From Arenicola marina (taxonomy: Eukaryota > Annelida > Polychaeta > Arenicolidae): a stretch of DNA of 64,000 bases. Within the stretch, counting starts at the first letter, position 1, and each line of letters starts with the position of its first letter. The notes below the pieces were generated by a model. That model was not told where the DNA came from and made no database searches. It saw nothing but the letters and a program-made list of their open reading frames with translations. Where the stretch lies: the NCBI GenBank assembly GCA_964019135.1, contig OZ025248.1:29815670-29879669 (forward strand), written 5' to 3'. This document shows, piece after piece, positions 20,553-63,968 of the stretch. Position numbers and translations under genes: made by a program.

Positions 20553-20634
20553 TCAGAACCAACGCCGTCTGGTGGCAGATGGGGACTTATGAAGATTGTT
20601 GTGAGATGAAGAGTAGACGGATTCTGAACGAATT
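20553..20634 (-). CDS. RELN: Reelin exon w47 (C-terminal region) with stop
   Basis: Encodes [16 protein letters not shown] and [10 protein letters not shown] then TGA. It joins w46 in phase through acceptor CTTTGTAG. The position, Ser/basic composition and RRR-aromatic end correspond to the vertebrate reelin C-terminal region (ending RRRRSLRRYP), but it is several residues shorter. Downstream is a 3' UTR of about 370 nt. Confidence 0.85.
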
Positions 20635-23600
20635 CTACAAAGGAGCAGAAAAAAACAAGCCACATCAGACCTTTGTCCAATTAAATATGACGCACGAAAT
20701 CATCTGTGGTCTACCTTTTTCGCATCCAATTAAATTACACAGTTATTAAACAAAGATACTCCAGCGGTTAATCAAATCAGTGTAATACATTACTATTAAA
20801 ACCAACTGCACATGTACTTTTGCCAGCGCGGAAATATAAAGAAAATGGCTATTTTACTCCCTGAATAACATACAAAATACAGCTGGGAGAGGGGAACTCA
20901 CAGTATGAGTTCCACGTGGTCTATGGCCCAGTGATCGTGACCTTGACCCCCGTGCTGAGGCTGCCACCATCGGAACTGGATCCCTCGAGCTCGGGCCTCC
21001 AGGGGCAATTCGTACCCGACCCGACGCGGCCTGAGGAATTCCCCGGCATCGTGGGTGGCGATCAGTCCCCAGTCAACGCCCTGCGGAGGGACAGTTAAAG
21101 GTTAAAGGTCAAAGGTCAAAGGTCAAGGTCGGGCTGGTCCGTGTGACCTTCGTATGTCGATATGTCGTACCCCAGTATGGCAGCCATGACATGCCTGGCC
21201 GCAAAGTAAATATATACGTAATTACAAAAAAAAATGGAAATAAAGAAATGTACTGTAGGATGATCATGTTATGACAATTAGATACTCACCCGTTCAGTGT
21301 ATACTTTAGGATGACCATGCCCTGACCATTAGATACTGACCTCGTTAAATGTATACCGTAGGATAAACATGACCATTAGATACTCACCCCGTTCAGTGTA
21401 TACTGTAGGATGACCATGTCATGCCCATTAGATACTCACCCCGTTCAGTGTATACTGTAGGATGACCATGTTATGCCCATTAGATACTCACCCCGTTCAG
21501 TGTATACTGTAGGATGACCATGTCATGCCCATTAGATACTCACCCCGTTCAGTGTATACTGTAGTATGACCATGCCATGTCCAGATCCTAGGCCAAGGTT
21601 AACTCGGCATAACGGGTTCTGTTGGACGCTGCCTATTTGCAGCACAAACATGATTTTGCTGAAATAAAGAAAAAAACATATATTTTTATATATCATATTT
21701 TTTACAATGTTATTGGAAACTTATCTAAGTCTAAGTCATCTAAACGTGTGGCTTTGCTAATTTTAAACTCAAAGAAGTATAGACCGAGAACTTTAACCGT
21801 TACAATGGTGGGACTTTCGGTCGCCCTTGAACAATTCGCCAAGGTCACGGCGTCTCGTATCGCAGTCGCTGGCGAATAATTGAGTTTTTTACGCTCCAGT
21901 GAACTCTGGGGTTCATTCCGAAACAATAACCAACCGCCAGACCCCCCCACCCCCCCCCGTTTCCGTTCTCATCTATTTAGCTGACCTGGCTTTCCTGGAG
22001 TCCAATTCCTGTGTGACCGCTTCGCGCTGACTGCAGCCCCCGAAGTACAGGTTGTTGCCGTGCGAGAGGGGCAGGAGAGGTCCGCAGCCCTGGCCCGCCC
22101 CGCCGCCCTGGCCCGCCCCGCCCCCCTCCACGCGGGCCCAGTGGCGGCTGGACACGCCGCCCTCGAAGCCGTCCATCAGACGCGTGGGGAGCGCCTTCCG
22201 CAGCGGGCGGCACGACTCGCCTGTAACGGGGAGAGGAGCAATGATACACGGGGGTGGGTGGGTGGTGGAAGGGGCTGAGGGGGTGACCGTGAGACGGGGG
22301 TTCTAAGAGAGAATCGAAGGAAGGAGGGGGAGGGGGGATCGTGTGAGAATGAGATAGAGAACGGAAAGGAGAGATAGTTTGACAGTAGCTTGTGACAATT
22401 AATAGAGAGCGAAAGCGAAAGAGAGCGGGTGAAAGAATGAGAGGTAGAGAACAGTGATAACTCAACCGAACTGTGTCCCTCATATTTGCTCTTCGGTGAG
22501 CGTTGAATACATTTTCGTTACAAAGTTCATAGTTTTTACACTTCATATTGCATTTTAAAGTACACTGCAAGATCCAAGTGAATGTGTATTTTCGGGAGGT
22601 TCTAGCAAGGGTTTACGGGGTACATTAACACCATGATGATTCGCAACGCATCGCCCATAAGTTATGATAACTAAGCAATACATCACATTTTATGCATATA
22701 TATATATATATATAATTACCCATCACAGACATAGAAGAGAAACATACTAAGCAAGGGTCAGGTCCCTATCTAGAAAATTGTGCCGGCGACTCCAAAACCA
22801 ACCCGCCTGCTCGTTTTCGGTATTCAGAACGATTATTTCACCAATCCGATTTCCAGTTCGGAAAAGAGTGTGACATTGATCATGTAGCCTGAATCCAGGG
22901 TCACGTCGCACCGTCTAAATATTAGTGGATGAACATTCTTCCGTTTACGCGCGACACGGAACAGACCCCACATAACATCTACCTACCGTCATAGCCGGGT
23001 TCACAGCGACACCGGCCGCTGACACAGTCACCGTGCCCGCTACACAGATCGGGACAGCTCTCGCCAATGTAGATGTCATCCAGGGCCCAGGGCAGTGGGG
23101 TGGGGGTCCCGTCGGTCGGCCCACCTACCCCCACCCCTCCACCTCCACCATCAACCTGTCTCCACCGGAAGCGAGTCTGACTGAAAAATGGCCGACGCAT
23201 CCGGTCTATTCGTCATATAAGAAAGCGATTATTTTCGCAACTGGAGCTTTAATATTGATCATTGACCAGAATAATGTCGTCATGTATCAGTAAAAAATAC
23301 TCTGTGGGTGCACTTGGCAGCTTTTTGAACACATTACATATTTAAGATTACGGTATCAAACCCAATTTTTGCTTTTTGCAAATGGACGGTAAGTCTATGA
23401 TAACTGGCAATGGATTATAAATAGTTGTGCATTACCGTAAACAAAGACTGAACAAGTCAATGACACAGCTGTGATTAAATGACATTATAAGACTAATGAC
23501 ATTGAGAGTAAGCAACGGTCACAGCGACACGACCTTGACTCCACACGAGAGGAACTCACGTGGAGAAGACTTTGGGGGGCAGCCGGAGGGTGACCCGGCG

Positions 23601-26600
23601 CCACTGGGGGCGGGGGCCGGCGGGGTAGACGGAGCCGGGGGTGAAGTCGTAGGGCCGACACTCCATGTTGACCTCGTGGCTGTTGAGGTGGCACCGAGGC
23701 AGGACGACCTCCCAGACGTCCGTCGTCGGGTCTCGGTTGTACTGCAGCTCCACCTGCCGGGTCTGGGTGCACAGCTCGTGGGCAGTGAGGCCACACCCCA
23801 CCTCTATCTATATGGGGGTCAGGGAAGGGAGGGAATCAGGGAGAGGAGCGATTCATACCATATGTTCATGCATGAATCACATTTATTGTTAGTTTGGTTT
23901 TTATTTCAATTTCAATATTTCAAGAATTGAATATTTGCATTCAAGACATGCAAGTCTGAACATGTGGAATAATCATGAATATGCAAAGTTTATACCGAAA
24001 TCGAGAAACGTGGCACGGGCTTCCACTGCGCGTTTATATATTTATAATATAGTTTTAAATTAGCTGTTTTAGGTTCGCTGAATCACGGTTGGTAACAGGC
24101 AGAGGGAAGTTGTTTACGTTCATCCACGTCGGGTTTGCTAATCCATTATGTTCGTTTGTGTAAAGACTCTGGATTTGCAGCAGTTATTTTGTTATATATA
24201 TAATATAAATATTTTTTCATTAAATTAAATTCCGTGACAGTTGCGCTTATACCGGAACAAATCATTTAACACTGGCAGAGAGCTTGCCAATTATGACGTC
24301 GTTGTAACCATTTTATTATTATCAGGTCTATTGGCTGTATATATACGACGGTAATATGAACAAAGTGATGGCCCACAAATGCCTTAAATATTGGTCTGAT
24401 CAACACATACTGCCAACAGTCGATCGCACCTTAAATTGCAGCATGTATCCACGTTGCACGATCATTTGCTGTGACGTCACGCTGGGCGGCATGACGCTCG
24501 ACTTGGAGCCCCACGTGACCGCGGGGTCGCTCCGCCCACATATCCCGGCGTGCATCTGGCCCCCGGGTAAGGATTCGACCGAGGTACTCATGGGGTCGTC
24601 GTTGAATGTCTCGTACATCTCGCTCGGGTTGATCTCCGAGCCTCCTGCGACGGGTAGATAGAGCGTGGGGTGGGGGAGTGGGGGGAGGAGGGTGAGTGGG
24701 TTGGTAGAGATTGTGGATATCAATGGGGAAATCAGTGCAATAAAGGGATGATCCAAAATGGGGAGCAGTGTCAGAAACAATGAATGGTGATAGGAATGCA
24801 AAGGGATAAAGGGTTCAGAGAAAGTACAGATAATGACGAACGGACAGAAATTAGGAAGGTTATGTAAGAATTCAGATATTATTGGAGAATGATTAATTAT
24901 AAGTGTTAATTTCTCTCACGCTGCCCCGAACGAAACAATTTGTGCGGCGGAAGTAATCAGTATACATGCATACTAAGTTAGAGCCCACCAAATGTATTAT
25001 TACAGTTTATGGCAGGCGTGAGTAATACGTGAGCTATGCAGGACAATGGTTCGCCCCAATATGGAAAAATCTACCATACTAACCGATATAGATGTCGTCG
25101 AGAGACCACCCCCTGGGTGGGGGACTAATGCCATCTGACGTCATCTGAAGCGGCTGCCACCAACGCACTCTGGTGGACAGCGTGCGCGCTTCTCTGGGCA
25201 GCGGAATATAGTCCCGCTGGGGGGCGCTGTGGTAGTTCTGGAAGTCCAGCACGTGCAGCATGTGCCATGTGATCCCTGGAACGGGATACGTCAGACACGG
25301 TTAGCTGACCCTTACTCAGTCTCAAACGATCGCCGATCTATATTGACCTGCCGTCATTACCTTAATAAGCCATAAACTCTACCCGGCGTGACCTCTACGC
25401 GACGTGACCTCAAGGCGTCGAAACCTCTATGCGTCGTAACGTCGACGCGTCGTAACCTCTACGGACCGTGACCCCTACGCGTCGTGACCTTCAAGAACCA
25501 TGACCTCTATACAATCCATGCCCTCTGCGCACCAAAGGCTTATACACGCAGCTAACACTAACGCCCTAACACCCATGTGCGATGACCTCAGCGTGCCATG
25601 ACCTCTACACACCATGACCTGTAGTAACATGACCTACCGGCGTCCGTGGAGTACTGCAGCAGGAGGCTTTCATTCCGTGACTTGGCAACACCGCATTCGG
25701 CGCGGGACGAGGCCCCTCCTAGCCCCGCGTAGTACTGCACGAATCTGTATGACAGCCAAGTCTACATCAGATACTACGCAATACAATATTATTATTTAAC
25801 TACCATGCATCCTGAAATCATCCTTAATTTGAAAAGATAACATAGACAATACAACGGGGAGATCTGATAGATAAACAGAAGGATCAAACAATGTTCATAG
25901 ACGGAGTCAATCTTTTGGTTTTGCAATATTTTATAATAATATTAGTTCTTTCACGGTATTTGATCAATATCGACGTTTAATCTTAATGGAACATTCATAC
26001 TAATTATGGATATTAATTCTGGAGTAATAATGTATTCTGGAGTAGTCAAGCCACGTGGTGCGTCCCACCTGGCGTTCCTGAGGTCAAGGTCGGCTGTGGT
26101 TACCAGTCTCTGTCCCCGGCCGCTGAAGTGGAGGCTGTGACCCTCCACCAGTTCCTGGCACCCTTCCCCCACGTGGCCACCCTGCACGAGGTCCCAGCGG
26201 CCCCCATCCAACTCCGGGCCGCTAAATGTGTCCCGTAGGTACATCTGGAACAACACCCCATCGCCCACAGAAAACGGGTGTAAGATAGCTGGCCCATGAA
26301 GCATGTAAATCAGATTTTAGCGATCGGCACCTTTCTTATAAAAAATCTTTTGTATAAGTATCGTATGTTACTAATTATTTTTTAAGGGGATTAATGAAAG
26401 CGATATTGGGTTCATTTTGCAACTTTATCATTAATATGTACAGGCCTAAACTGGGATTCGTCTTACCGTAAATTTGAAAAAGTATAAGGTAGGCGGATGT
26501 GGAAACGAGGATCACATTAGGAGCAACTACCACGAGTGACGACCAACATTTACCACACAGAAGGAGCTATGAACTTAAGACAAAACCAAAAGGAAAATAC

Positions 26601-29600
26601 GACTTTACAAGCAAATTTACGTACAAAAACATGACGAAAATGAGATGTAGCAGTAACCGAAATACCACATTTAATTTTGTTCTCATTATGTACGATCCAG
26701 CATTATGATATGACCTTGGTATACACCCACCTGTTTGTCCTTGGCCTCCTGACACGTGGCGCCGCCGTAGCCCGGGTCACACACACAGCGCGGGAAGTCA
26801 CAGCGTCCGTGGCCGTGGCAGTGGCTCTCGCAGCGCGGCCCTACGTACACGTCATCCAGCGCCCAGTGCTGTCTGCCCATCGCCATGTCTGACTGCAGGG
26901 CCTGCTGCCAGCGGAAGCGGGTCGCCCTGCAACACACCGGCAACCGAACTCAGTGCGAGAGGATTTGTATATTAGGGGTCTGGAAGGGGTAAAAAGCGAC
27001 TAGCGACACATGCATATTTGTCGCTAGTCGACGTTCAACATTGACCCCCAAATTCCGACACTGAGGAGCTGAAAAAGCGACATCGACACAGATAGTGGCA
27101 TTTGAGAAAAAAACGACACTGAACTTACCCAAAAAGCGACACGGCACGTCATGAAAAATCGACATTCGACACGGACGACTTAAAAAAATCGACACTGAAC
27201 ACTGGAAGGCCCCTTCCAGATCCCTTATATGTTATATCAAAATATGTTTAAAGCAACTTAATCATCAACGTTTTGGGTTGACAAAAGGCCACTAGCGTAT
27301 TTCATTTACATAAATGCAAAAGGTTAAGGAGAGAAATGCTGACATGACAGTTAACTTTTCTTATTTACTGTTTACGGTTGTTGCTATAATACAATATGAT
27401 TGACACATAAATAATGTAAATGATTCTGAGGGATTCGTTGGATATTTTTACGTAGTTTGAGCTTGACGGTCTGAAGCATATGGAAAAAGACACAGTAACA
27501 AGTCTACGGAATGACTTAGTTGGTTCAATTCACTCTGGTTTCCGGCAACAGCAGAGCTGGTTTGTGGACTGAATATGTGCCATGATGATTTAGTGAACTA
27601 TGTCTTCTCCACCAGGGCCTGATATACGCTTTAGAACTTTCGCTAAAAGCGAACTGGGATCATTTTGTAACAATAAAAAGAGAATAAATACGATAATAAC
27701 TACAGCCAGACATAGACGATAAGGACACGGGAGCTCACTTGCTAACTGCAGCGCCCTCCAGAGGGATGGTTACCCGCCGCCAGCCGGGGTTGCTGAAGTA
27801 GACGCTGGGAGGGGTGGCCTGGCCGTGACACTCGGGCAGGAAGTGCAGACACTGGTCGGTCACCAGGGCCCAGGTCATGCCGTAGTCCGTCGAGAACTCC
27901 AGGCGTACCGGCGACACCTCGGCGTCCCAGGAGGCGTTGCAGCCCACGCTGATGCTAAACTGCAGCACGTGGTCCGGTTGGACGGTGACGTCAGCCGTTA
28001 CCAAGGTGACCATCTCGCGCTCCTTGGGGACGGCCATGACGGCGTGTTCGGCTCGGCAGTAGGCGCCGTAACGGACGTTGTCCCGCTGAAGCCACGCCAG
28101 GGGCTGGAAGCCGTCGTTGAACCAGTCCTTCATATCGTTGGGGTTGGCCTCCTTGCCCCCGATCACCACCCCGTCCACGGCCCAGTCCCCGCGCCCCGGC
28201 CCGTCGTGGGAGGGCTGCCACCAGCGGATGCGGGCCCCGTTTGTCTTCGCCGCCTTCGGCAGATCCACCATTATGTAGCTGGAGAAGATGGGAGAAGTGG
28301 AGAATTGGATGATATTATAATTTAATAATTGTCTTACCCTGGAACTCAATATACAATGGGACCTCGTCCTTAGGACGTAGTTAGTCCGTTGGAAAGACAG
28401 AGTTGTTCCTGCCTGTCTGTTTGGGTGAGAATATGATAAACAAAACGTGCTGAATTGTCGAGATTCAGATTTTTACGCCAGAGAAATGGGACCATCAGAA
28501 AATGGGATTTCTTGACCTATTATGTGGTTCTAGATCTACGCTTCACATCATTCTATGCAATTCAAATCATTCCGCAAGAGGAAACGGGACCATTAATTAG
28601 TCCCTGACCGCGAAGTCGACCATGAGCGATAATATGATTCTCCGCTCCCATTTAATATAAATATCGAAATGTCGGATATTTACGCCAGAGAAATGAGACA
28701 ATGGACACCATGAACTAGCGAGGTCCGGGCCGGGGATATTCACTGCGTACCTGCCCTTGGGGTACTGGTCATAGTGCAGCTCGATGACGCTAGTCCACGT
28801 GCCGCCACCGTCCGTCGAGTAGTCCAGCAGCAGTCCCTCGTCCCGACCACGTGGCGACTTCAGGCAGCCGAAGATGAAGTTGAAGTGGATGAACATGGCC
28901 GCCCTCAGGTCAAGGTCAGTCGTGACCAGCTGTCGCCGGCAACCCTTTCAGGTCAATGGTAAGAGAAATATAGATGATGAAACGGATTGAATGGGAATTC
29001 TCCTTTCGTACCCGAGATAGTTGTTCAGTAGCTTAAAGTTGATATGATTTGCATTTAGGAAGTATTGTTTGGCAATGAAAATTGATTTTTGTGTATATTT
29101 TCCATGCTGCAATGTGAAATCATCGTTGACTAGGCGACCTGCAATCCGATTTAACGATACTATAAGCTGACGTTAACGTTAACGTTAACAAGCACATCAA
29201 GACTTCGAAATATCTCTTATATAGTTTTCAACGTATAACATTTCAGACCCCGTCAGGATCCAATAATAAATGAAATCGCTCCAACCGAGTATTTTTGTTT
29301 TGATAATATTATTCTAAAGTTTCGCTTTGCCTCGTGTCCTCCACTTACGCCTTGGAAATGGAGAGCCGGTCCGGCGGATAGTATGCCACATACACTGGAG
29401 ATGGCGCCACCGTTGACGGTGCTCCACTTGCTTCTGGACGGCGTCTCGCTGAAGTCGTCGGTCAGCATGGTGGGCAGTGACTGGAGGGGCTCGGAGCAGT
29501 CGTCCCCTCCCCAGCCCTTGTCACAGCTGCCCATCCAGATGGGTATAGGGGCGGAGGGGCCGGGTAAGCGGGGACGGTGGAGTGGGGGAGGGGGGGGGGT

Positions 29601-56600: not shown

Positions 56601-59600
56601 GGAACGGCCAACAACGCACTTAAGTATCAGAAGATGACTGATATAATGTACGCTCATCATATTAAACAACTTGACCATGCGGCCAAATATCGAGCGTTAC
56701 TTTATTCACATATATCAAGAGTCAAATTGATAATAATTTTATCGTGAAGAAAGTCTCTATAATAGGCAAACACTCACCATGTGGCGGGCGGCAGCTCCAT
56801 GGTAACGCGGCGCCAGTTCTGGAACTCCGCGGCATGGTAGACGCTGGGCTCGCGGTAGGCTTCGCACATGCGCGGTGGCCAGCAGCCCTGCCGCACCAAG
56901 TCCCAGGTCATGCCGTGATTGGTGGAATATTCCAGGTAGACCTCGTTGTCATCGTCGGTTGAGATGTGCCTCGTGCAGCCCATGGCCAGACTGAACTGCA
57001 TCATGTAGGACGGGCCGATGGCCAGTGCGGTGGTCGCCAGGTAGCGCTGCTCTCCGGGGGTGTAGTGGCCGGTGAAGCTGGTAGGTGACCATGGCGACAA
57101 CAAGCGAATCAGTTGTAACGGGGGTGACTTTCAGAGACGCACAACAGATTGTACATTTTTGTTCTTACTGTCTAGTGATGTTAACATAATGGATGGTCTC
57201 TGTCTGGTGATTAATTTAAATAATAATAAGAAAAGCTCAAAAAAAACTCAGCATAGCCCTTAGATGAACCTTCCTGTTCCAGAAATGAAAGTTTGTACTG
57301 CTTTCAATAATTTAGTATTATCTTCAAGATTAATGTTGGAGGAACCGAATAAGAGGAGATTGCACGATTTAAACGCAGCCGTAAGATCCAAGATAAAACC
57401 ATATTCAATAACGAAGGAGATACCATTTAGTAGCGCATTGCGAAGGTTGTTATACGATGGACATTGTAGTCGGTAGTGGATTGAATCTTCAGGTTTTTTA
57501 GTAGTCCTGCAGAGTAGTTCAAAGTATAAGTCTTTGAAAACTACCTTACTGTATGAGGCCGGCCACAGTAGGGCCCCGCCTCGCCTTGGTGGACCACTGC
57601 CCGGCGGCCTACCCTAGTGTATGAGGCCGGCCACATTAGGGCCCCGCCTCGCCTTGGTGGACCACTGCCCGGCGGCCTACCTTAGTGTATGAGGCCGGCC
57701 ACAGTAGGGCCCCGCCTCGCCTTGGTGGACCACTGCCCGGCGGCCTACCTTAGTGTATGAGGTCGGCCACAGTAGGGCCCCGCCTCGCCTTGGTGGACCA
57801 CTGCCCGGCGGCCTACCTTAGTGTATGAGGCCGGCCACAGTAGGACCCCGCCTCGCCTTGGTGGACCACTGCCCGACGGCTTACCTTAGTGTATGAGGCC
57901 GGCCACAGTAGGGCTCCGCCTCGCCTGGGTGGACCACTGCCCGGCGGCCTACCCTAGTGTATGAGGCAGGCCACTGTAGAGCCCCGCCTCGCCTTGGTGG
58001 ACCACTGCCCGGCGGCCTACCCTAGTGTATGAGGTCGGCCACAGTAGGGCCCCGCCTCGCCTTGGTGGACCACTGCCCGGCGGCCTACCTTAGTGTATTA
58101 GGCCGGCTACAGTATGGCCCCGCCTCGCCTTGGTGGACCACTGCCCGGCGGCCTACCTTAGTGTATGAGGCCGGCCACATTAGGGCCCCGCCTCGCCTTG
58201 GTGGACCACTGCCCGGCGGCATACCTTAGTGTATGAGGCCGGCCGCAGTAGGGCCCCGCCTCGCCTTGGTGGACTACTGCCCGGCGGCCTACCTTAGCGT
58301 ATGAGGCCGGCCATAGTAGGGCCCCGCCTCGCCTTGCTGGACCACTGCCCGGCGGCCTACCTTAGTGTATGAGGCCGGCCACAGTAAGGCCCCGCCTCGC
58401 CTTGGTGGACCACTGCTCGGCGGCCTACCTTAGTGTATGAGGCCGGCAACAGTAGGATCCCGCCTCGCCTTGGTGGACCACTGCCCGACGGCCTACCTTA
58501 GTGTATGAGGCCGGCCACAGTAGGGCTCCGCCTCGCCTTGGTGGACCACTGCCCGGCGGCCTACCCTAGTGTATGAGGCAGGCCACTGTACGGCCCCGCC
58601 TCGCCTTGGTGGACCACTGCCCGGCGGCCTACCTTAGTGTATGAGGCCGGCCACAGTAGGGCCCCGCCTCGCCTTGGTGGACCACTGCCCGGCGGCCTAC
58701 CTTAGTGTATGAGGCCGGCCACAGTAAGGCCCCGCCTCGCCTTGGTGGACCACTGCCCGGCGGCCTACCCTAGTGTATGAGGCCGGCCACAGTAAGGCCC
58801 CGCCTCGCCTTGGTGGACCACTGCCCGGCGGCCTACCCTAGTGTATGAGGCCGGCCACAGTAGGGCCCCGCCTCGCCTTGGTGGACTACTGCCCGGCGGC
58901 CTACCTTAGTGTATGAGGCCGGCCACAGTAGGGCCCCGCCTCGCCTTGGTGGACCACTGCCCGGCGGCCTATCTTAGTGTATGAGGCCGGCCACAGTAGG
59001 GCCCCGCCTCCCCTTGGTGGACTACTGCCCGGCGGCCTACCTTAGTGTATGAGGCCGGCCACAGTAGGGCCCCGCCTCGCGATGGTGGACCACTGCCCGG
59101 CGGCCTACCTTAGTGTATGAGGCCGGCCACAGTAGGGCCCCGCCTCGCCTTGGTGGACCACTGCCCGGCGGCCTACCTTAGTGTATGAGGCCGGCCACAG
59201 TAGGGCCCCGCCTCGCCTTGGTGGACCACTGCCCGGCGGCCTACCTTAGTGTATGAGGTCGGCCACAGTAGGTCTCCGCCTCGCCTTGGTGGACCACTGC
59301 CCGGCGGCCTACCTTAGTGTATGAGGCCGGCCACAGTAGGGCCCCGCCTCGCCTTGGTGGACCACTGCCCGGCGGCCTACCTTAGTGTATGAGGCCGGCC
59401 ACAGTAGGGCCCCGCCTCGCCTTGGTGGACCACTGCCCGGCGGCCTACCTTAGTGTATGAGGCCGGCCACAGTAGGGCCCCGCCTCGCCTTGGTGGACCA
59501 CTGCCCGGCGGCCTACCTTAGTGTATGAGGCCGGCCACAGTAGGGCCCCGCCTCGCCTTGGTGGACCACTGCCCGGCGGCCAGTCTCCTCCAGGTCGTTG

Positions 59601-62600
59601 AAGTCCAGGCTGACGGCGTTGTACAGGTGGTCGGAGACGGCGAGGTCGTCCAGAGCCCACATGTCCTGTCCCTGACCCGAGTGCTGAGGCTGCCACCAGC
59701 GGAAGCGGCACACCTCCCCGCGGGCCTCCTCGGGCACCGGGACCCATAGCACTCTGAGGGGAGGGATGGGGGCGGTGGTGGCAGGAGAGGGGAGGGGAGG
59801 GGAGGAGTGGGGGGGGGGAGAGTTGGAGTGGAATGAGAAACGGGATTGACACAGGCAAGGGAGGACAATACAGATATGATATTAATAATATAATTAATTG
59901 TTGGGTTAAACACAAGTGTACTTTTGTAACAAATTTGAAATATACAGATGCTATACAACGCAAAATAATTTGCATCTAATTATAGTTAAAACAAATAGGT
60001 GACATTTAAGGACAACAGTAATGTCAACAACATCTGGATGAAATGATGACCTCATGACACTCACACAGGTTCCGTGTACTTGCCGGGCGGTAGTTCCTCT
60101 AACTGCCGCCAGGAGATGCCCCCGTCACACGTGTAGTGAATGTACACCCCCTCGGTGACGTCATCGGGAGGTGGACAGTTACCAGCAACGGAATCGCTTC
60201 CCATTCTCACGCTGAACTGCAGGTATCTGTAGCAACAGTAGACTAGTAGCGTGTTTTAAGGAGGAATATTATTCCATTACAGTTCGGTGGCTCTTGGACT
60301 GGCTCTGTCAGGAGATTCTGGCTGGGGCAGACAGACCTGATCCGTGTAACATCGTAAACCTAAACTGAAACCTAGCTGAATCTGATAATCCAGCTAAATC
60401 TGATAATCCAGCTGCATCTGATAATCCAGCTGAATCTGACAATCCAGCTGAATCTGATAATCCAGCTGAATCTGATAATCCAGCTGCATCTGATAATCCA
60501 GCTGCATCTGATAATCCAGCTGAATCTGATAATCCAGCTGCATCTGATAATCCAGCTGAATCTGACAATCCAGCTGAATCTGATAATCCAGCTGAATCTG
60601 ATAATCCAGCTGAATCTGACAATCCAGCTGAATCTGATAATCAAGCTGAATCTGATAATCCAGCTAAATCTCACAATCCAGCTGAATCTGATAATCCAGC
60701 TGAATCTGATAATCCAGCTGAATCTGATAATCCAGCTGAATCTGATAATCAAGCTGAATCTGATAATCAAGCTGAATCTGACAATCCAGCTGAATCTGAT
60801 AATCCAGCTGAATCTGATAATCCAGCTAAATCTCACAATCCAGCTGAATCTGATAATCAAGCTGAATCTGATAATCCAGCTGAATCTGACAATCCAGCTG
60901 AATCTGATAATCAAGCTGAATCTGTTAATCCAGCTAAATCTCACAATCCAGCTGAATCTGATAATCCAGCTGCATCTGATAATCCAGCTGCATCTGATAA
61001 TCCAGCTGCATCTGATAATCCAGCTGAATCTGATAATCCAGCTGAATCTGATAATCCAGCTGCATCTGATAATCCAGCTAAATCTCACAATCCAGCTGAA
61101 TCTGATAATCCAGCTGAATCTGATAATCCATATGATGGGGATCATTGCATGCATCTCAATATTCGGTTAGAATCCGGCAAATTCTGAATCAGGAAATATT
61201 GGATCCCTAGATGCTATACATTGAGCCCATGTTGCCATCCTGTGACCTGGTATATGACCCAAGTGACACTGTCGTGACTTAATAAAACCCTCTCCGGCAA
61301 CCATGGAGGATGGGACCCCGGGTGACCTTCTTGTGAGCTGACCTGACCGTCGTGGTGTTGAGCTCTACGGTCTCCAGGCGGCGAGGTCCGTCCCCGCTGA
61401 AGACCAGGGCCTTGCCCGTGGAGACCACTCCGCACGTGTAGCCCAGGCCCGGGGCCCCACGCACCATGGCCAGGCTGCCCGAGGTCCCCTCCAGGGAGGT
61501 GAGGTCTTCCACCAGCTGGGTGGGGAGGGAGCCCTCGGCCCGCTCACACAGCGCCCCCGTGAAGCCCAGGTCACACCTAGAGGGGGCGGATATGTGAAGG
61601 TTATGGGTAAGATGATCTACGGGCTGACACGATAGGGGATGGGTCAGATGATCTACGAGATGACGCGATAAGTTGAAGAGTCGATGATTTAACGTACTGA
61701 TAATGGATTATTAATTGTGATTATGATCATACGCATGACACGGAAAATTGGAAAATAAAACGTCACCGAAGTCGAGCTAAGCGAGGGAGAGACAGCTAAA
61801 ACACCAATTAATTAGAGAATTAGAAAATCGTACCTGCAGCCTTCAGGGGTACACGCACCGTGTCCATGACAACCCTTCTCACAACGGCCGATAAAAACTG
61901 AAATGTTACGTCAATAGGTTGTAGCCAAAGAAAATACTATATATCTAATGATGTACCTTGAGCAAATAAATGCAAACATCAAACCCAAATACAACAGAAA
62001 CAAATCTACCTTAATCTATACATATCAAGGCGGAAAATGAAGACGAAGCCAAAAATCAGTTTCGTACGTATGACCAATACGTAAGTTCAAATACGATCGT
62101 AACAACTCATTATGACAATTATTTCAATAAACCATCCTTAAAGATTAATATCAAAAATTAGCATGACGATTACGGTAAATATTGCACAGCCATAAGGGCC
62201 TATACCGTTGTCGAGGGCCCACGAGGCGGGGCTGGGGGAGTCCAGGGCCCAGCGGAGTCGCGTGTAGCGGGACAGGGCGGCGTGGGGCAGCGGCAGCGTC
62301 AGGCGGACCCAGCTACAGGGAGAGATGTCACCATGGATGCGCTCAACGTAAATACTAACAGCTCATAAGATAATGGTGAGGCACATGCGCACTTTTGATG
62401 AGCTGTGGCGAGTATAATGCGCACCTCGTAGTGAAATGGACAGCAAATTATGGCATAGCTTCTATCGTCAATAACATGGGTATCTGCCGTAGGACAGCCA
62501 TTAGACGCTGTCTTCTTCCCTCGCTAGCCCTATACCCGCCCTCGTCCTTTCTCAACTGCAATGTGTTTGTTACCACAGCGTGACTTTGAGAGTGCGACTA

Positions 62601-63968
62601 GACTATAATACCAACGGCTTACGTGGTAAGTATTTGCAAACTCTTGCGAAACCTTAGATTAAATCTACTTGATCAGGTATCTATGTTGCGTAGCTTGATA
62701 GCGATTAATCCCTTCTTGCCTAGTTATATCCTTTAGACGCTGTGCAAAGCTGGCGTGAGTGGAACCCGTGGTAATACTCATCTTCTAGGGTAACCACGTG
62801 ACGTACGCGCGAATCATATGTTGTCCTAATCACGTGACGCACGTGCGAGTCGCCATCTGTGGTAACCACGTGATGCACGTGCGACTCGACATCTGTGGTA
62901 GCCACGTGACGCACGTGCGACTCGCCATCTGCGGTGACCACGTGAAGCACGTGCGACTCGCCATCTGCGGTGACCACGTGACGCACGTGCGACTCGCCAT
63001 CTGTGGTAACCACGTAACGCACGTGCGACTGGTAACCATGTGACGCACGTGCGACTCATCTGCTGTGACAACCACGTGACGCAGTGACCCACCCTCTGTG
63101 CTAACCACGTGACGCAGCGACTCACCCTCTGTGCTAACCAGGTGACGCAGAGTGACTCACCCTCGGTGGAGACTGCCGCTGAAGGTGGCGCTGTTGGCGG
63201 CCACCGTCTGGATGCAGCTCCCGGAGCGACAGTTCTCGTACAGTGGCTGCCACGTGTGTCCGTGGTCGGCCGAGTACTGCAGCTCGACGCTGGTGGGCAG
63301 TGGGGGGGGGGGGGAGGGAAGCGAGGATATGTGGTCAACAGGGCGGTGCAGATATGGCTAACAGTTGGTCAACATGGTGGCGAATATTGTTATTTGTTAT
63401 TAAAATGGTGGCGAATATGTGGCAAAGATTTGTTCAACATGCTAGCGAATATACCGCTAACACATTTTAAATAATGCGGCGAATATGTTATAAAAACGGC
63501 AAACTTTACTGACTATTATTAAAACTTACTAAGCTGAGTGGTTTCTAAGCATAACATAAAATCATACTAGATGAGCAGATGGTTAACCTGCTGTGAACCT
63601 GTAAAGCCGCGTGCACCGTTCCAAACTACAGCTGTTCAAGCTCGATATAGCTATCACCTTACTTCTTGATTTCCTTCCCATTTCTACTTATCACTCAACG
63701 AGTGGTCAGGTCCAAAATAAAACACTGTCTTACATTTTATCCCAATACGAACTTACCTCGTATTATCTGAATCGTCATTCTCACAGTCCAAGTTCAAGTT
63801 GAACTGGACAAAGTGTGACGGTTCGCTAGGCATGACGGGATGGATTCGAACACTATCCAAACTCCAGACATCATGCCCGGATCCGTTGAACGTCTTCTGA
63901 TTCCAGCAAATTCTCGAGTCGGGATTGCGACTTGTTTGCGGGATAGCAATCGAAACTTCTCGTGGTAT
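20553..63968 (-). CDS. RELN: Reelin, repeat 1 to C-terminus (47 exons, 5' part missing)
   Basis: This is the secreted extracellular-matrix protein reelin, which in vertebrates binds VLDLR/ApoER2 and controls neuronal positioning. I place 47 exons whose phases all agree. They give 2,911 codons plus TGA, against roughly 3,460 residues for complete human reelin. The order is reelin repeats 1-8, each with subrepeat A, an EGF module (pattern CxxxCxGHGxC) and subrepeat B, then a basic C-terminal region. Diagnostic blocks recur throughout: [23 protein letters not shown]. The match to remembered human reelin is collinear from repeat 1A to the end. The signal peptide, reeler domain and start of repeat 1A lie beyond 64000. 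Exon w36 (540 nt) is far longer than the others. Confidence 0.96.
20902..21080 (-). CDS. RELN: Reelin exon w46 (repeat 8B end)
   Basis: Reads [47 protein letters not shown]. Compare human [21 protein letters not shown] and HDQWALDHVEVVL. Donor ATACT|GTGAGT. If this donor is not used, the frame meets TGA at once (CTG TGA). Confidence 0.94.
21099..21131 (+). promoter_or_regulatory. DR1-type AGGTCA repeats
   Basis: AGGTTA followed by three AGGTCA half-sites, each separated by one A, then an abutting AGGTC. AGGTCA-A-AGGTCA is the consensus for HNF4/RXR-type nuclear receptors. It lies in the last-but-one reelin intron, 19 bp from exon w46. It may equally be a short 7-bp simple repeat. Confidence 0.35.
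21248..21600. repeat. 52-57-bp exon-end/donor minisatellite after w45
   Basis: About six tandem copies beyond the exon itself. On the minus strand each contains ATGGTCATCCTACAGTATAC, ACTGAACGGG and GTGAGTATC, i.e. the last roughly 35 bases of w45 ([10 protein letters not shown]) plus the donor. The leftmost copies are degraded. Confidence 0.93.
21544..21658 (-). CDS. RELN: Reelin exon w45 (repeat 8B)
   Basis: Reads [20 protein letters not shown] and [10 protein letters not shown]. The first block equals human [14 protein letters not shown]. Acceptor ATTTCAG; donor AACGGG|GTGAGT, repeated in the array next to it. Only 115 nt, but phase and homology fix it. Confidence 0.92.
21986..22220 (-). 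CDS. RELN: Reelin exon w44 (EGF 8 end, repeat 8B)
   Basis: Reads [40 protein letters not shown] and [20 protein letters not shown]. Compare human [33 protein letters not shown] hexapeptide is tandemly duplicated. Acceptor CGTTACAG; donor GCCAG|GTCAGC. The intron 22221-22986 has purine-rich and TA-repeat stretches only. Confidence 0.92.
22987..23180 (-). CDS. RELN: Reelin exon w43 (repeat 8A end, EGF 8)
   Basis: Reads [20 protein letters not shown], then [20 protein letters not shown] and [12 protein letters not shown] Gly-rich insertion of about 15 residues lies in the loop before WALDD and is absent from human reelin (KGEETEKQSWAID). Acceptor TTTTCAG; donor GACG|GTAGGT. Confidence 0.93.
23560..23807 (-). 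CDS. RELN: Reelin exon w42 (repeat 8A)
   Basis: Reads [39 protein letters not shown] and [14 protein letters not shown]. Acceptor CATATAG; donor CCAC|GTGAGT. The intron 23808-24429 is AT-rich without recognised elements. Confidence 0.92.
24430..24644 (-). CDS. RELN: Reelin exon w41 (repeat 8A start)
   Basis: Reads [35 protein letters not shown] and [11 protein letters not shown]. Compare human GAEINPSQLVDTFDDEG and IIQPGYMMQFK. Acceptor CGTCGCAG; donor TTAAG|GTGCGA. Confidence 0.92.
25084..25275 (-). CDS. RELN: Reelin exon w40 (repeat 7B end)
   Basis: Reads [40 protein letters not shown] and WSLDDIYIG. Acceptor GTTCCAG; donor ATCG|GTTAGT. The intron 24645-25083 has only purine-rich stretches. 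Confidence 0.93.
25375..25637. repeat. Degenerate donor-adjacent repeat with AGGTCATG
   Basis: Imperfect 17-20-bp copies, on the minus strand GTAGAGGTCATGGTGC and variants with CGCGTAGAGGTCAC. The first copy starts at the w39 donor (GTAGGTCATG), so the array resembles a degraded junction repeat. The AGGTCA cores are nuclear-receptor half-sites by sequence only. Confidence 0.65.
25638..25744 (-). CDS. RELN: Reelin exon w39 (repeat 7B)
   Basis: Reads [33 protein letters not shown]. Compare human FLQYWGRIG and [14 protein letters not shown]. Acceptor ATACAG; donor GCCG|GTAGGT. Confidence 0.91.
26069..26244 (-). CDS. RELN: Reelin exon w38 (repeat 7B)
   Basis: Reads [40 protein letters not shown] and [13 protein letters not shown]. 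Compare human AVTQDLDLRGAK. Acceptor GTTCCAG; donor GCCAG|GTGGGA. Confidence 0.92.
26731..26926 (-). CDS. RELN: Reelin exon w37 (repeat 7A end, EGF 7)
   Basis: Reads [40 protein letters not shown] and [19 protein letters not shown]. The complete EGF 7 lies in this one exon. Acceptor TGTTGCAG; donor AACAG|GTGGGT. Confidence 0.94.
26990..27200. repeat. Degenerate AAAAAGCGACAC repeat with a 12-bp hairpin
   Basis: Six or more imperfect copies of AAAAAGCGACAC(TGAAC) in the w36-w37 intron. At 26997-27030 the arms CGACTAGCGACA and TGTCGCTAGTCG form a perfect 12-bp stem with a 10-nt loop. The rest of the intron up to 27738 is featureless. Confidence 0.75.
27739..28278 (-). CDS. RELN: Reelin exon w36 (repeat 6B end to repeat 7A), 540 nt
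   Basis: The longest exon. It reads [82 protein letters not shown] and [15 protein letters not shown]. In sister repeats this span is split over two or three exons, so introns were probably lost here (or not gained). Acceptor TCTCCAG; donor AGCAA|GTGAGC. Confidence 0.95.
28751..28944 (-). CDS. RELN: Reelin exon w35 (repeat 6B)
   Basis: Reads [40 protein letters not shown] and [15 protein letters not shown]. Matches human LLVTVDLNLTNAEFIQFYF and MEIFYDQYSKPG. Acceptor CTGAAAG; donor GGCAG|GTACGC. Confidence 0.93.
29349..29526 (-). CDS. RELN: Reelin exon w34 (EGF 6 end, repeat 6B)
   Basis: Reads [40 protein letters not shown] and ALHFQG. Compare human [25 protein letters not shown]. Acceptor TGGGCAG; donor AGGC|GTAAGT. 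The w33-w34 intron (29527-30241) has no recognisable element. Confidence 0.93.
30242..30382 (-). CDS. RELN: Reelin exon w33 (repeat 6A end, EGF 6)
   Basis: Reads [40 protein letters not shown]. Human has FRWHQPAPF and GDGCIDMCSGHGRC here. EGF 6 has one extra cysteine (CQCSC). Acceptor GGTTATAG; donor GTAT|GTACGT. In the vertebrate protein, repeat 6 belongs to the receptor-binding part. Confidence 0.92.
30893..31061 (-). CDS. RELN: Reelin exon w32 (repeat 6A)
   Basis: Reads [34 protein letters not shown] and [12 protein letters not shown]. Compare human IELEYSVDLGLSWHPLV. Acceptor ATCCACAG; donor GTCAG|GTGGGT. The intron 30383-30892 is unremarkable. Confidence 0.92.
31414..31521 (-). CDS. RELN: Reelin exon w31 (repeat 6A)
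   Basis: Reads [34 protein letters not shown]. Compare human TRYVVSTDVAVNEDSFLQ. Acceptor TTGCTAG; donor TTTG|GTAGGT. Confidence 0.91.
32043..32184 (-). CDS. RELN: Reelin exon w30 (repeat 6A)
   Basis: Reads [35 protein letters not shown] and PALHFT. The acceptor CACACAG fits the human junction DQ|ILIGG. Donor CACAG|GTTAGT. The intron 31522-32042 holds nothing recognised. Confidence 0.9.
32383..33074. repeat. 57-bp exon-end/donor minisatellite after w29
   Basis: Twelve tandem copies. On the minus strand each has GAGAATGGGCCATTGACCAG, a copy of the w29 end (EEWAIDQ region), then GTACGT or GTGCGT and about 33 bases of intron. Most copies keep a usable CAG|GT. The unit length is a multiple of three, which explains long spurious ORFs here. 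Confidence 0.95.
33071..33329 (-). CDS. RELN: Reelin exon w29 (repeat 5B)
   Basis: Reads [50 protein letters not shown] and AIDQ. Compare human [23 protein letters not shown]. Acceptor CTTCCAG; donor ACCAG|GTACGT, repeated downstream in an array. Confidence 0.94.
33953..33998. repeat. 12-bp repeat CGACGGACGTAC, four copies
   Basis: A short perfect tandem repeat in the w28-w29 intron (33330-34117). The same intron at about 33555-33610 has a weak tRNA-like A/B-box pair on the minus strand that may be another SINE relic. Confidence 0.85.
34118..34277 (-). CDS. RELN: Reelin exon w28 (repeat 5B)
   Basis: Reads [40 protein letters not shown] and TTDLDLTTA. Acceptor GATGTAG; donor CACG|GTCAGT. The intron 34278-34742 shows only an AT dinucleotide run. 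Confidence 0.92.
34743..34972 (-). CDS. RELN: Reelin exon w27 (repeat 5A end, EGF 5, repeat 5B start)
   Basis: Reads [53 protein letters not shown] and FFKEDFDG. A whole EGF module sits in one exon, as in repeat 7. EGF 5 has the extra residue before CxC that human EGF 5 also has. Acceptor TCTCTCAG; donor GACG|GTAAGC. Confidence 0.94.
35150..35250 (-). mobile_element. tRNA-derived SINE fragment
   Basis: On the minus strand an A-box-like GGTGGAGTAGCGGATTGG is followed about 20 nt later by the B-box GAGTTCGATTCCC, the internal promoter of a tRNA. The ends cannot form a tRNA acceptor stem and no normal anticodon arm is evident, so this is a SINE head rather than a tRNA gene. It lies in the w26-w27 intron, in reelin orientation. 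Confidence 0.7.
35457..35680 (-). CDS. RELN: Reelin exon w26 (repeat 5A)
   Basis: Reads [34 protein letters not shown] and [15 protein letters not shown]. Compare human INVGC and LHLCGSVRFRW. Acceptor TGGCGCAG; donor GCGG|GTAGGC, chosen because GG|C keeps phase into w27. Confidence 0.92.
35879..35993 (-). CDS. RELN: Reelin exon w25 (repeat 5A)
   Basis: Reads [37 protein letters not shown]. Compare human [21 protein letters not shown]. Acceptor CTGGCAG; donor TTGAG|GTACGC. Confidence 0.93.
36378..36537 (-). CDS. RELN: Reelin exon w24 (repeat 4B end, repeat 5A start)
   Basis: Reads [37 protein letters not shown] and SANT. Human has IVDDFIIDG and NWFFYPGGNIGLYCP here. Acceptor CCGCCAG, repeated upstream; donor CCAG|GTCTGT. 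Confidence 0.9.
36538..37035. repeat. 37-38-bp minisatellite carrying the w24 3' splice site
   Basis: About 13 tandem copies. On the minus strand each unit reads CCATACTAATGTATTG... then CCGCCAG|GCCTG. That is a TACTAAT branch-point-like motif 20-25 nt before a CAG acceptor, followed by the first bases of exon w24. The genuine acceptor is the copy next to the exon. Confidence 0.93.
37255..38455. repeat. 1.2-kb minisatellite, 32-33-bp unit, G-rich on the minus strand
   Basis: About 37 copies of a unit like ACCACCTCCCTAACGACCACCCACCCTTG. On the transcribed (RNA-like) minus strand it is G-rich with repeated GGGTGGGTGG and TTAGGGAGG, so G-quadruplexes in RNA or DNA are possible. It starts about 25 bp inside the intron from the w23 donor and does not copy the exon. 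Confidence 0.93.
38482..38558 (-). CDS. RELN: Reelin exon w23 (repeat 4B)
   Basis: A 77-nt exon reading [20 protein letters not shown] and QPRHE, matching human VPLPYTAQTNATRFRLWQP. Acceptor ATTGCAG; donor TGAAG|GTGAGA. Confidence 0.93.
38858..39058. repeat. AT-rich 20-bp repeat (AATACATCATAATATAAATA)
   Basis: About ten tandem copies in the w22-w23 intron (38559-39201), away from both junctions. Confidence 0.85.
39202..39404 (-). CDS. RELN: Reelin exon w22 (repeat 4B)
   Basis: Reads [31 protein letters not shown] and [20 protein letters not shown]. Acceptor TCCTTCAG; donor CCTCG|GTGGGA. The C-rich tract at 39642-39658 lies in the upstream intron. Confidence 0.92.
39772..39946 (-). CDS. RELN: Reelin exon w21 (EGF 4 end, repeat 4B)
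   Basis: Reads [37 protein letters not shown] and [13 protein letters not shown]. Compare human FGGPYCVPVVPLP and DLWPEVYGAE. The acceptor GCGTGCAG is weak; the donor is TTAAG|GTGTGA. Phase 0 out. Confidence 0.92.
40459..40599 (-). CDS. RELN: Reelin exon w20 (repeat 4A end, EGF 4)
   Basis: Reads [28 protein letters not shown] and [16 protein letters not shown]. The rare CPWMCSG is shared with human EGF 4. Acceptor TGTCACAG; donor TGCGT|GTAAGT. The intron 39947-40458 holds nothing recognised. Confidence 0.94.
40933..41206 (-). CDS. RELN: Reelin exon w19 (repeat 4A)
   Basis: Reads [40 protein letters not shown] and [12 protein letters not shown]. Matches human [20 protein letters not shown] closely. 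Acceptor TGCTGCAG; donor GCTGT|GTGAGT. Confidence 0.94.
41220..41600. repeat. Imperfect GGATGACTGGCTTGTAAGGAAGGCTGGC repeats
   Basis: Several degenerate copies of GATGACTGGCTTGTAAGGAAGG and ATTGGNTGGNTGG-type pieces in the w18-w19 intron. They do not include the exon junctions. Confidence 0.6.
41668..41847 (-). CDS. RELN: Reelin exon w18 (repeat 3B end, repeat 4A start)
   Basis: Reads [40 protein letters not shown] and DNALEFSKN. The acceptor GGGTCAG has a weak pyrimidine tract but is the only one in phase. Donor AAATG|GTGAGC. Matches human WALDDVLIGMNDSSQTGFQ. Confidence 0.87.
42188..42589. repeat. Three extra copies of the w17 exon end and donor
   Basis: Partial copies of the last roughly 95 bases of w17 (from [10 protein letters not shown] to QPTVT) occur at about 42210, 42330 and 42467, separated by C-rich spacers. 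Two keep ACAG|GTTAGC on the minus strand; in the leftmost the donor reads ACAG|GAAGG. Confidence 0.9.
42590..42831 (-). CDS. RELN: Reelin exon w17 (repeat 3B)
   Basis: Reads [40 protein letters not shown] and [14 protein letters not shown]. Matches human repeat 3B ([20 protein letters not shown]). The acceptor TTGGACCAG is adequate; the donor is CACAG|GTTAGC. The exon end and donor are partly repeated three more times downstream. Confidence 0.92.
43722..51910. repeat. 8.2-kb exon-end/donor minisatellite after w16
   Basis: About 95 tandem copies of an 85-bp unit, with a 91-bp variant carrying an extra CCCTCC-type stretch. Read on the minus strand, each unit has the last roughly 47 bases of exon w16 (coding [12 protein letters not shown]), the donor CAG|GTAGGC, and about 38 bases of intron (ACTTATAGCGTGGAATGG). 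Nearly every copy keeps the donor. A 1,289-bp higher-order repeat is visible between 49391 and 50990. The array takes up most of the 9.1-kb intron; the left remainder (42832-43721) holds nothing I recognise. Confidence 0.97.
46320..46481 (+). mobile_element. Short retroelement 3' end inserted in the 8.2-kb array
   Basis: About 160 bp of unrelated sequence interrupts one array unit. It ends in AATAAAA followed by seven GAATT pentamers, typical of a 5'-truncated non-LTR element or SINE tail. TGTT flanks both sides and may be a short target-site duplication. It carries no ORF. Confidence 0.6.
51911..52118 (-). CDS. RELN: Reelin exon w16 (EGF 3 end, repeat 3B)
   Basis: Finishes EGF 3 (APEC) and starts subrepeat 3B ([51 protein letters not shown]). 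The donor is ACATCAG|GTAGGC. The last roughly 47 nt plus the donor seed the 8.2-kb array that fills the following intron. Confidence 0.92.
52510..52658 (-). CDS. RELN: Reelin exon w15 (repeat 3A end, EGF 3)
   Basis: Reads [24 protein letters not shown] and [20 protein letters not shown]. Acceptor TGTGCAG; donor TGAAG|GTCAGA. The introns on both sides (about 390 bp each) hold nothing recognised. Confidence 0.93.
53054..53268 (-). CDS. RELN: Reelin exon w14 (repeat 3A)
   Basis: Reads [40 protein letters not shown] and GSVYHAG, then [15 protein letters not shown]. Collinear with human repeat 3A (LNIGC, HDAGMSWFLVKEGCYP). Acceptor TCTTCAG; donor CATAA|GTGAGT. Confidence 0.92.
53424..53606 (-). 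mobile_element. LINE fragment, ORF2 C-terminal end
   Basis: On the minus strand about 60 codons read [20 protein letters not shown] and FANWLEPYI to a stop. HLFW-x-C is typical of the C-terminal tail of non-LTR retrotransposon reverse transcriptases (for example Tx1/L1-type elements). A 5'-truncated remnant in the w13-w14 intron (53269-54090). The rest of that intron shows nothing I recognise. Confidence 0.65.
54091..54267 (-). CDS. RELN: Reelin exon w13 (repeat 3A)
   Basis: Reads [31 protein letters not shown] and [16 protein letters not shown], matching human repeat 3A (FAVTRDLTLKPGYVLQFK). Acceptor GAACAG; donor TCAAG|GTGGGT. In phase 0 at both ends. Confidence 0.92.
54735..54894 (-). CDS. 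RELN: Reelin exon w12 (repeat 2B end), GC donor
   Basis: Reads [34 protein letters not shown] and DHFE. No GT donor keeps phase 0 into w13, but GAG|GCAAGG does and matches the usual context of GC-AG introns. The intron 54268-54734 holds nothing else notable. Confidence 0.88.
55206..55411 (-). CDS. RELN: Reelin exon w11 (repeat 2B)
   Basis: Reads [30 protein letters not shown] and [20 protein letters not shown]. The acceptor TACGCAG has a poor pyrimidine tract; the donor is GCTAG|GTGGGA. The intron 54895-55205 is unremarkable. Confidence 0.9.
55797..55983 (-). CDS. RELN: Reelin exon w10 (EGF 2 end, repeat 2B)
   Basis: Completes EGF 2 ([10 protein letters not shown]) and starts subrepeat 2B ([33 protein letters not shown]). 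Acceptor CTTCACAG; donor AGAG|GTAACT; leaves in phase 0. The intron 55412-55796 has nothing notable. Confidence 0.9.
56144..56281 (-). CDS. RELN: Reelin exon w9 (repeat 2A end, EGF 2)
   Basis: Reads [27 protein letters not shown] and [16 protein letters not shown]. Acceptor TTGCAG; donor TGCAG|GTGAAC. The intron to w10 is only 160 bp. Confidence 0.92.
56778..57077 (-). CDS. RELN: Reelin exon w8 (repeat 2A)
   Basis: Reads [51 protein letters not shown] and [12 protein letters not shown]. This is one of the closest matches to human reelin ([26 protein letters not shown]). Acceptor CTACCAG; donor ACATG|GTGAGT. The intron to w9 (56282-56777) is AT-rich with nothing recognised. Confidence 0.93.
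57260..57548 (-). mobile_element. LINE fragment, reverse-transcriptase C-terminal end
   Basis: On the minus strand about 95 codons read [28 protein letters not shown] and so on to a stop. The C-x(n)-H-x(4)-C pattern is that of the zinc-knuckle-like end of non-LTR retrotransposon ORF2. A short 3' tail may extend to about 57130. It is a 5'-truncated piece in the same orientation as reelin, inside the w7-w8 intron. Clade uncertain. Confidence 0.65.
57549..59582. repeat. 68-bp exon-end/donor minisatellite after w7
   Basis: About 30 tandem copies of a 68-bp unit. On the minus strand each consists of the last roughly 60 bases of exon w7 ([15 protein letters not shown] coding) followed by ACTAAG|GTAGGC. 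Most units keep the potential donor. The exon itself supplies the rightmost unit. The left end abuts a LINE fragment. Confidence 0.95.
59517..59753 (-). CDS. RELN: Reelin exon w7 (repeat 1B end, repeat 2A start)
   Basis: Encodes [40 protein letters not shown] and a tail ending [10 protein letters not shown]. The tail corresponds to human repeat 2A around QPYCG. The donor is ACTAAG|GTAGGC. The last 65 nt of this exon and its donor are the founder sequence of the adjacent 2-kb array, so the true donor could in principle be any copy; the first keeps the reading phase into w8. Confidence 0.88.
60065..60226 (-). CDS. RELN: Reelin exon w6 (repeat 1B)
   Basis: Reads [31 protein letters not shown] and KYTEPV. 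Acceptor GCTACAG; donor CCTGT|GTGAGT. The following short intron (59754-60064) has a long pyrimidine-only tract before the next acceptor. Confidence 0.9.
60363..61128. repeat. 18-bp minisatellite (CCAGCTGAATCTGATAAT)
   Basis: About 42 copies in the intron between w5 and w6, with point variants (GCATCT, AAATCTCACAAT, AATCAAGC). Each full unit contains CAGCTG, an E-box. Because 18 is a multiple of three, it opens spurious long reading frames. Confidence 0.95.
61343..61576 (-). CDS. RELN: Reelin exon w5 (EGF 1 end, repeat 1B start)
   Basis: Completes EGF 1 ([11 protein letters not shown]) and starts subrepeat 1B ([29 protein letters not shown]). The donor GTCAGCTC is weak but fits the phase and the position used in sister repeats. 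Confidence 0.9.
61834..61897 (-). CDS. RELN: Reelin exon w4 (EGF 1)
   Basis: A 64-nt exon reading [20 protein letters not shown], the first half of EGF module 1. Acceptor TTTCAG; donor TGCAG|GTACGA. It is small but fixed by phase on both sides and by the CxxxCxGHGxC pattern. Confidence 0.9.
62206..62312 (-). CDS. RELN: Reelin exon w3 (repeat 1A end)
   Basis: Reads [20 protein letters not shown] and WALDN, matching the conserved end of subrepeat 1A (human ITIPLPNAALTRNTRIRW). Acceptor CTGTAG; donor AACG|GTATAG. The downstream intron (61898-62205) is unremarkable. Confidence 0.9.
62785..63160. repeat. Donor-adjacent minisatellite with about 15 CACGTG E-boxes
   Basis: About ten imperfect copies of a unit of about 35 bp (GGTGAGTCGC...GTCACGTGGTTAGC on the minus strand). 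It starts directly at the w2 donor, and the first units repeat its GGTGAGTC. I count 15 CACGTG hexamers. The rest of the intron (62313-62784) holds nothing recognisable. Confidence 0.85.
63161..63289 (-). CDS. RELN: Reelin exon w2 (repeat 1A)
   Basis: Reads [20 protein letters not shown], the Asp-box type strand pair of a reelin subrepeat. The acceptor follows a run of C on the coding strand (CCCACCAG); the donor is GAGG|GTGAGT. The donor is repeated in the adjoining intronic array. Confidence 0.9.
63757..63968 (-). CDS. RELN: Reelin exon w1 (repeat 1A)
   Basis: Encodes [11 protein letters not shown]..., [11 protein letters not shown] and [10 protein letters not shown], i.e. a FRWWQP-like end and the start of repeat 1A. 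The acceptor is a pyrimidine tract ending CTCCAG; the donor is CGAG|GTAAGT. Phase 0 in, 2 out. The intron to w2 (63290-63756) holds nothing I recognise. Confidence 0.88.

Follow-up and report, generated by a model that had tools for sequence, protein, structure and literature searches.

Minisatellite-like arrays overlapping seven exon-intron junctions of one predicted reelin gene

The minus strand of the window, that is, the whole 64-kb stretch of DNA analysed here, carries a predicted reelin gene of 46 exons, which amount to 8,651 bp and 2,883 codons without a single stop:

20902..63968, minus strand: predicted reelin gene, running from exon w1 (63968-63757) to exon w46 (21080-20902); it may be incomplete at both ends

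The exon chain was built from mutually similar stop-to-stop frames by means of a codon and splice-site score, two exon ends being placed by hand, and its exon order reproduced the w-numbers that the first-pass annotation had given to the exons. Exon w36 matched solved reelin chains (E 1.4e-53), which we take to be those of mouse. The Pfam reelin subrepeat model PF21471 matched three of the four exon stretches given to it, one of these matches lying below the curated cut-off, and EGF models matched exon w43. As judged from its sequence, the predicted gene is one that carries reelin subrepeats and EGF modules and matches known reelin.

Low scores occur at some splice sites of the model, including two donors (w3, w12) and five acceptors (w4, w18, w21, w34, w38); none of these coincides with a splice site overlapped by a tandem array. 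Exons w3, w25 and w45 entered the model without a homology seed, and w45 gains support from an alignment with a solved reelin chain across w45-w46. Once the arrays are collapsed, GC content is 0.626 in the exons versus 0.403 in the introns. Exon w44 contains an 18-bp coding repeat (22082-22127) that reads as a GGAGQG-like stretch in the predicted protein; no other array called at the standard threshold lies entirely within an exon.

Tandem Repeats Finder returned 31 rows in the window. Two rows outside the gene, the wholly exonic one and one nested microsatellite (46440-46480) were dropped, and merging of the overlapping rows gave 19 arrays in the non-coding space of the gene, which occupy 15,123 of its 34,416 intronic bases. 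Seven of these 19 arrays overlap an exon-intron junction, namely the donors of w2, w7, w16, w17, w29 and w45 and the acceptor of w24, each covering one junction only and never both ends of an intron, while the remaining 12 are free of junctions. The seven arrays and two others close to a donor are the following:

62789..63168, minus strand: 36/33-bp array over the donor of w2 (junction 63160/63161), with 8 exon bp inside the array
57541..59581, minus strand: 68-bp array of about 30 copies over the donor of w7 (59516/59517), 65 exon bp
43719..51957, minus strand: 85/92-bp array of about 94 copies over the donor of w16 (51910/51911), 47 exon bp
42211..42669, minus strand: array of about 121-bp units, 4 copies including the real one, over the donor of w17 (42589/42590), 80 exon bp
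36532..37028, minus strand: 37-bp array over the acceptor of w24 (36537/36538), 6 exon bp
32391..33088, minus strand: 57-bp array of 12.2 copies over the donor of w29 (33070/33071), 18 exon bp
21251..21583, minus strand: 52-bp array of 6.5 copies over the donor of w45 (21543/21544), 40 exon bp
37235..38458, minus strand: 32-bp array in intron w23-w24, starting 23 bp past the donor of w23, without junction overlap
25377..25637, minus strand: degenerate 16-bp repeat after the donor of w39, read by eye beyond the extent called by Tandem Repeats Finder (25377-25509)

Tandem Repeats Finder placed the w17 array at 42437-42669, and the lower limit listed above was set by eye; the last copy of this array has lost the donor through a small deletion. 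Spacing of the donor copies in the w16 array is mixed, with 66 spacings of 85 bp and 24 of 92 bp. The same array houses the nested GAATT microsatellite (46440-46480, 8.2 perfect copies). Intron w23-w24 (36532-38458) holds two distinct arrays, the 32-bp one near its donor and the 37-bp one over its acceptor.

All six of the arrays in which the first-pass annotation had seen the real splice site of the neighbouring exon (donors of w7, w16, w17, w29 and w45, acceptor of w24) were confirmed. Its further statement that two more arrays start at the donors of w2 and w39 held in part: the w2 array does overlap its junction, weakly, and the w39 array only abuts it. At w39 a repeat resembling the 16-bp unit can be followed by eye from a few bases past the donor; as the called part stops 128 bp from the donor, this array was left out of the junction count.

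Copies of the splice sites were located in the arrays by ungapped matching, which strongly diverged copies may escape, and were scored with a generic table. Splicing at the first internal copy would lead to an in-frame stop in all six donor arrays (the first 3 to 6 copies being tested in each), and later donors share the reading of the first copy and would therefore meet the same stop. A stop was also met from each of the 12 decoy acceptors upstream of w24. On the other hand, with the exon-proximal sites the predicted protein aligned to solved reelin chains through w16-w17-w18 and w7-w8 with no gap or with gaps of a few residues, through the w29-w30 join without a gap, and through the w45-w46 join with one gap of one residue; the w23-w24 join was covered in lower-scoring stretches of the alignment, outside the best one. 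Continuity of the reelin protein was thus seen at six of the seven array-bearing junctions (w7, w16, w17, w24, w29 and w45). Considering that use of a decoy meets a stop and that the protein aligns along reelin, splicing very probably uses the exon-proximal copy.

The overlap with junctions was compared with a null in which a single unit stood for each array and was placed at random within the introns or across one junction. Longer units cover junctions more often by chance, and this null accounts for unit length. Under uniform placement 2.70 of the 19 arrays are expected to overlap a junction and 7 were seen (P 0.0087). The excess was concentrated in the long units, since among arrays with units of at least 30 bp the expectation was 2.15 of 10, again with 7 seen (P 0.00098), and among those with units of at least 36 bp seven of the eight arrays overlapped a junction (P 0.00018). 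Units of the junction arrays are indeed longer than those of the other arrays (Mann-Whitney P 0.0005).

The result changed when base composition was allowed for. When a GC weight was fitted to the 12 arrays lying entirely in introns, beta was 2.9 with a standard error of 1.9, so that the GC preference is itself uncertain. With this fitted weight 3.69 of 19 overlaps are expected (P 0.048), and 2.91 of 10 for units of at least 30 bp (P 0.007); with the weight raised by two standard errors, expectations are 5.15 (P 0.22) and 4.08 (P 0.053), respectively. Exact GC matching gave 5.50 of 19 (P 0.24) and 4.69 of 10 (P 0.071), and we judged it over-strict because a unit overlapping an exon is GC-rich through its location; the fitted weighting was therefore preferred, though it rests on 12 arrays. 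Lowering the repeat threshold (67 rows) added 20 short intronic arrays, none of them at a junction, and 2 further exonic ones, and with these weaker arrays included 3.31 of 39 overlaps were expected versus the 7 seen (P 0.035). A moderate excess at junctions is therefore present, mainly for long units and of uncertain size, in a pattern that was spotted post hoc in one gene. The first-pass annotation had called the overlap far more than chance, which is overstated: P is 0.0087 with uniform placement and ranges from 0.048 to 0.24 once GC is considered.

We also searched for the junctions independently of the repeat finder, by comparing 30-bp junction contexts with their own intron, limited to 2,500 bp, with 575 contexts from intronic DNA free of arrays as controls. 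Of the 90 junction contexts, 6 reached 21 or more matching bases of 30 within their own intron, compared with 8 of the 575 controls. Contexts of the donors of w7, w16, w17, w29 and w45 scored 29-30 of 30, the acceptor of w24 scored 21, and w2 scored 19, a range (19-20) also reached by 15 of the 575 controls. On this search alone, w24 and w2 are no better than controls, and w2 is the weakest case; the w24 array was nonetheless taken as real, since around the acceptor 27 of 28 bases agree in two of the 12 copies upstream.

Concerning how the arrays began, the exonic share of the unit takes the values 0.16, 0.22, 0.32, 0.55, 0.66, 0.77 and 0.96, and the position of the junction in the unit is indistinguishable from uniform (Kolmogorov-Smirnov P 0.98, n=7), seven points being compatible also with a weak preference. 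The exon-side edges of the arrays sit 6 to 80 bp within the exon. Such edges, together with the even spread of the junction in the unit, give no support to the mechanism proposed at first pass, a tandem duplication that starts at the junction itself. The alternative offered beside it, by which repeats are tolerated only when the splice site is duplicated along with them, is contradicted in this gene by the 12 of 19 arrays that contain no junction.

We think it probable that these arrays arose as ordinary minisatellites do, preferentially at GC-rich exon edges, and are harmless since the exon-proximal site is still used. Tandem duplication, presumably by slippage or unequal exchange, would be blind to splice sites and would tend towards DNA of high GC content, in this gene the exons and their edges. 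Wholly exonic duplications would alter the protein and be mostly removed. A duplication across a donor, on the contrary, would leave the exon with its own donor and drop the extra copies into the intron, and a duplication across an acceptor would do the mirror image, with the extra copies upstream; if the spliceosome picks the exon-proximal copy, such boundary duplications would be nearly neutral and could persist and expand. We favour this account of GC-rich edges because allowing for GC shifts the expected overlap towards the observed one. Three points count against it, as the enrichment of long units persists (7 of 10, P 0.001 to 0.07, depending on the null), the greater unit length of the junction arrays is accounted for in part only, and the GC preference is poorly measured.

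A mutational process that prefers junctions, for example one coupled to transcription or to R-loops at donors, might instead start the duplications there, although we regard it as rather unlikely. It would agree with the uniform null (P 0.0087 for the 19 arrays, P 0.00018 for the 8 with units of at least 36 bp) and with the ratio of six donors to one acceptor among the junction arrays. That ratio, however, is not significant (P 0.125), the breakpoints are unanchored at the junction, the enrichment falls both with GC weighting and when the weaker arrays are added (P 0.035), and the pattern is a post hoc one from a single gene. The broader proposal that boundary duplication has been recurrent and donor-biased in this lineage, placing long units at exon edges beyond what base composition would give and leaving seven arrays, one of them with about ninety strong decoy donors for the spliceosome to pass over, appears to us doubtful to a similar degree.

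Much less probable is that selection retains the copies, the repeated splice sites being functional, for example by holding U1 along a long intron or by strengthening the exon. The decoys are mostly intact, as GT is retained in 91 of 92 donor copies at w16, 27 of 28 at w7, 10 of 11 at w29, 5 of 5 at w45 and 2 of 3 at w17, and AG in all 12 acceptor copies upstream of w24, 11 of which equal or exceed the real acceptor in score. Yet the likeness extends over entire units and not only over splice sites, with a mean identity of internal units to the consensus of 0.97 at w7 and 0.95 at w16, and the diverged w2 array has lost most of its GTs (2 of 7 kept); the 12 arrays without a junction also argue against such a function. 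Selection on the copied splice sites was therefore rejected as the main account. At w7 and w16 the unit at the exon end is even nearer to the consensus (1.00 and 0.99) than the internal units, and the same holds for w17, w29 and w45, whereas it is farther from the consensus at w2 (0.73 vs 0.85) and w24 (0.89 vs 0.92).

We give slightly less credit still to the idea that the arrays are remnants of intron creation through tandem duplication of an exonic AGGT stretch, a model that has been published for mirages in globins (PMC3087553, in the portion available). Each array covers one junction and not both ends of the intron. Moreover, by eye the position and phase of the w16 intron recur after w5, w28, w38 and w44, and those of the w17 intron after w23, so that both introns look older than their arrays; for w29 compared with w3, and w45 compared with w39, the phase is off by a base. 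Intron gain at w16 was rejected on these recurrences of the same position and phase. Least likely of all would be an assembly artefact with repeats collapsed or expanded: according to the accessible parts of PMC3087553 and PMC3902484, lancelet assemblies contain errors at the globin and PGBD5 mirages or disagree over them, so that the copy numbers given here may be wrong, but the copies bear different substitutions, the seven units are different and each has its own junction, and copy number is more easily affected than the presence of the duplications.

The first-pass annotation had also pointed to minisatellites at junctions in amphioxus, and this link is borne out by publications that call them mirages, as far as the accessible portions of those papers go. 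They are minisatellite-like tandem copies across an exon-intron boundary, described in the globins BflGb6 and BflGb9 (PMC3087553), in PGBD5, whose splice sites carry two such repeat sets (PMC3902484), and in Adh3, as cited in the globin and PGBD5 papers (PMC3087553, PMC3902484). As in these mirages, the unit of the reelin arrays spans the boundary, 5' and 3' boundaries are both affected, many copies keep their AG or GT, and the reading frame is intact with the exon-proximal site. Mirages are further characterised by regular splicing that goes undisturbed, for which the continuity of the reelin protein is indirect support, by lengths that vary between alleles and in somatic cells, and by their occurrence in cephalochordates. 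Differences concern extent, with seven boundaries in the reelin gene against the two described in PGBD5 and one each in BflGb6 and BflGb9, and about 94 copies at w16 against 2 to 7 copies in the same three genes, again in the accessible parts of those descriptions. Furthermore, units at the cluster edge escape homogenisation in the globin mirages (PMC3087553, same portion), whereas the exon-end units of w7, w16, w17, w29 and w45 are as near to the consensus as the internal ones or nearer, those of w2 and w24 being farther from it. To judge by the letters, the predicted reelin arrays are of the mirage kind already published; they go beyond the described cases in density, a single gene having seven such boundaries, and in how long the w16 array is. 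The resemblance would also make a lancelet the likely source of the gene. Among the literature matches listed, at the level of titles and starts of abstracts and with subscription papers mostly outside the set, there was no genome-wide test of mirages and no reelin mirage.

Other systems resemble the arrays in part. The introns of amphioxus VCBP3 contain complete or partial exon copies that resemble neighbouring coding exons, some with canonical splice sites; unlike in reelin, minisatellite arrays are absent from the part of the description available (PMC2632668). The Rogers model of intron gain, by AGGT tandem duplication (as cited in the available portion of PMC3087553), involves splice sites as in reelin, but the reelin arrays cover one boundary each, and the w16 and w17 introns look to predate their arrays. 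Ordinary intronic minisatellites have similar unit lengths and near-identical units, to which the seven reelin arrays add exon sequence and a splice site. The earthworm metallothionein introns have a structure different from the reelin arrays (PMC12783039), and for amphioxus huntingtin tandem repeats are mentioned without junctions (PMC2206037), both as given in the accessible sections of these papers. About ninety near-identical strong donors beside the real one would provide a natural test of how the spliceosome chooses the exon-proximal site, and with seven such arrays at the boundaries of a single gene the mirage idea becomes open to testing as a rate, for which the null model needs to include base composition.

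Outside the gene, the window contains a tandem array of units of about 1,666 bp from 298 to about 19500, in which spacings of 1,666 and 1,665 dominate and ten unit starts were found. A 239-codon open frame is repeated in it on the plus strand and had no match in Pfam at the curated cut-off, and Rfam and tRNA scans of the 64-kb window returned no match. The array is edged by a second one of 20-bp units, with about 21 copies, at 19507-19913.
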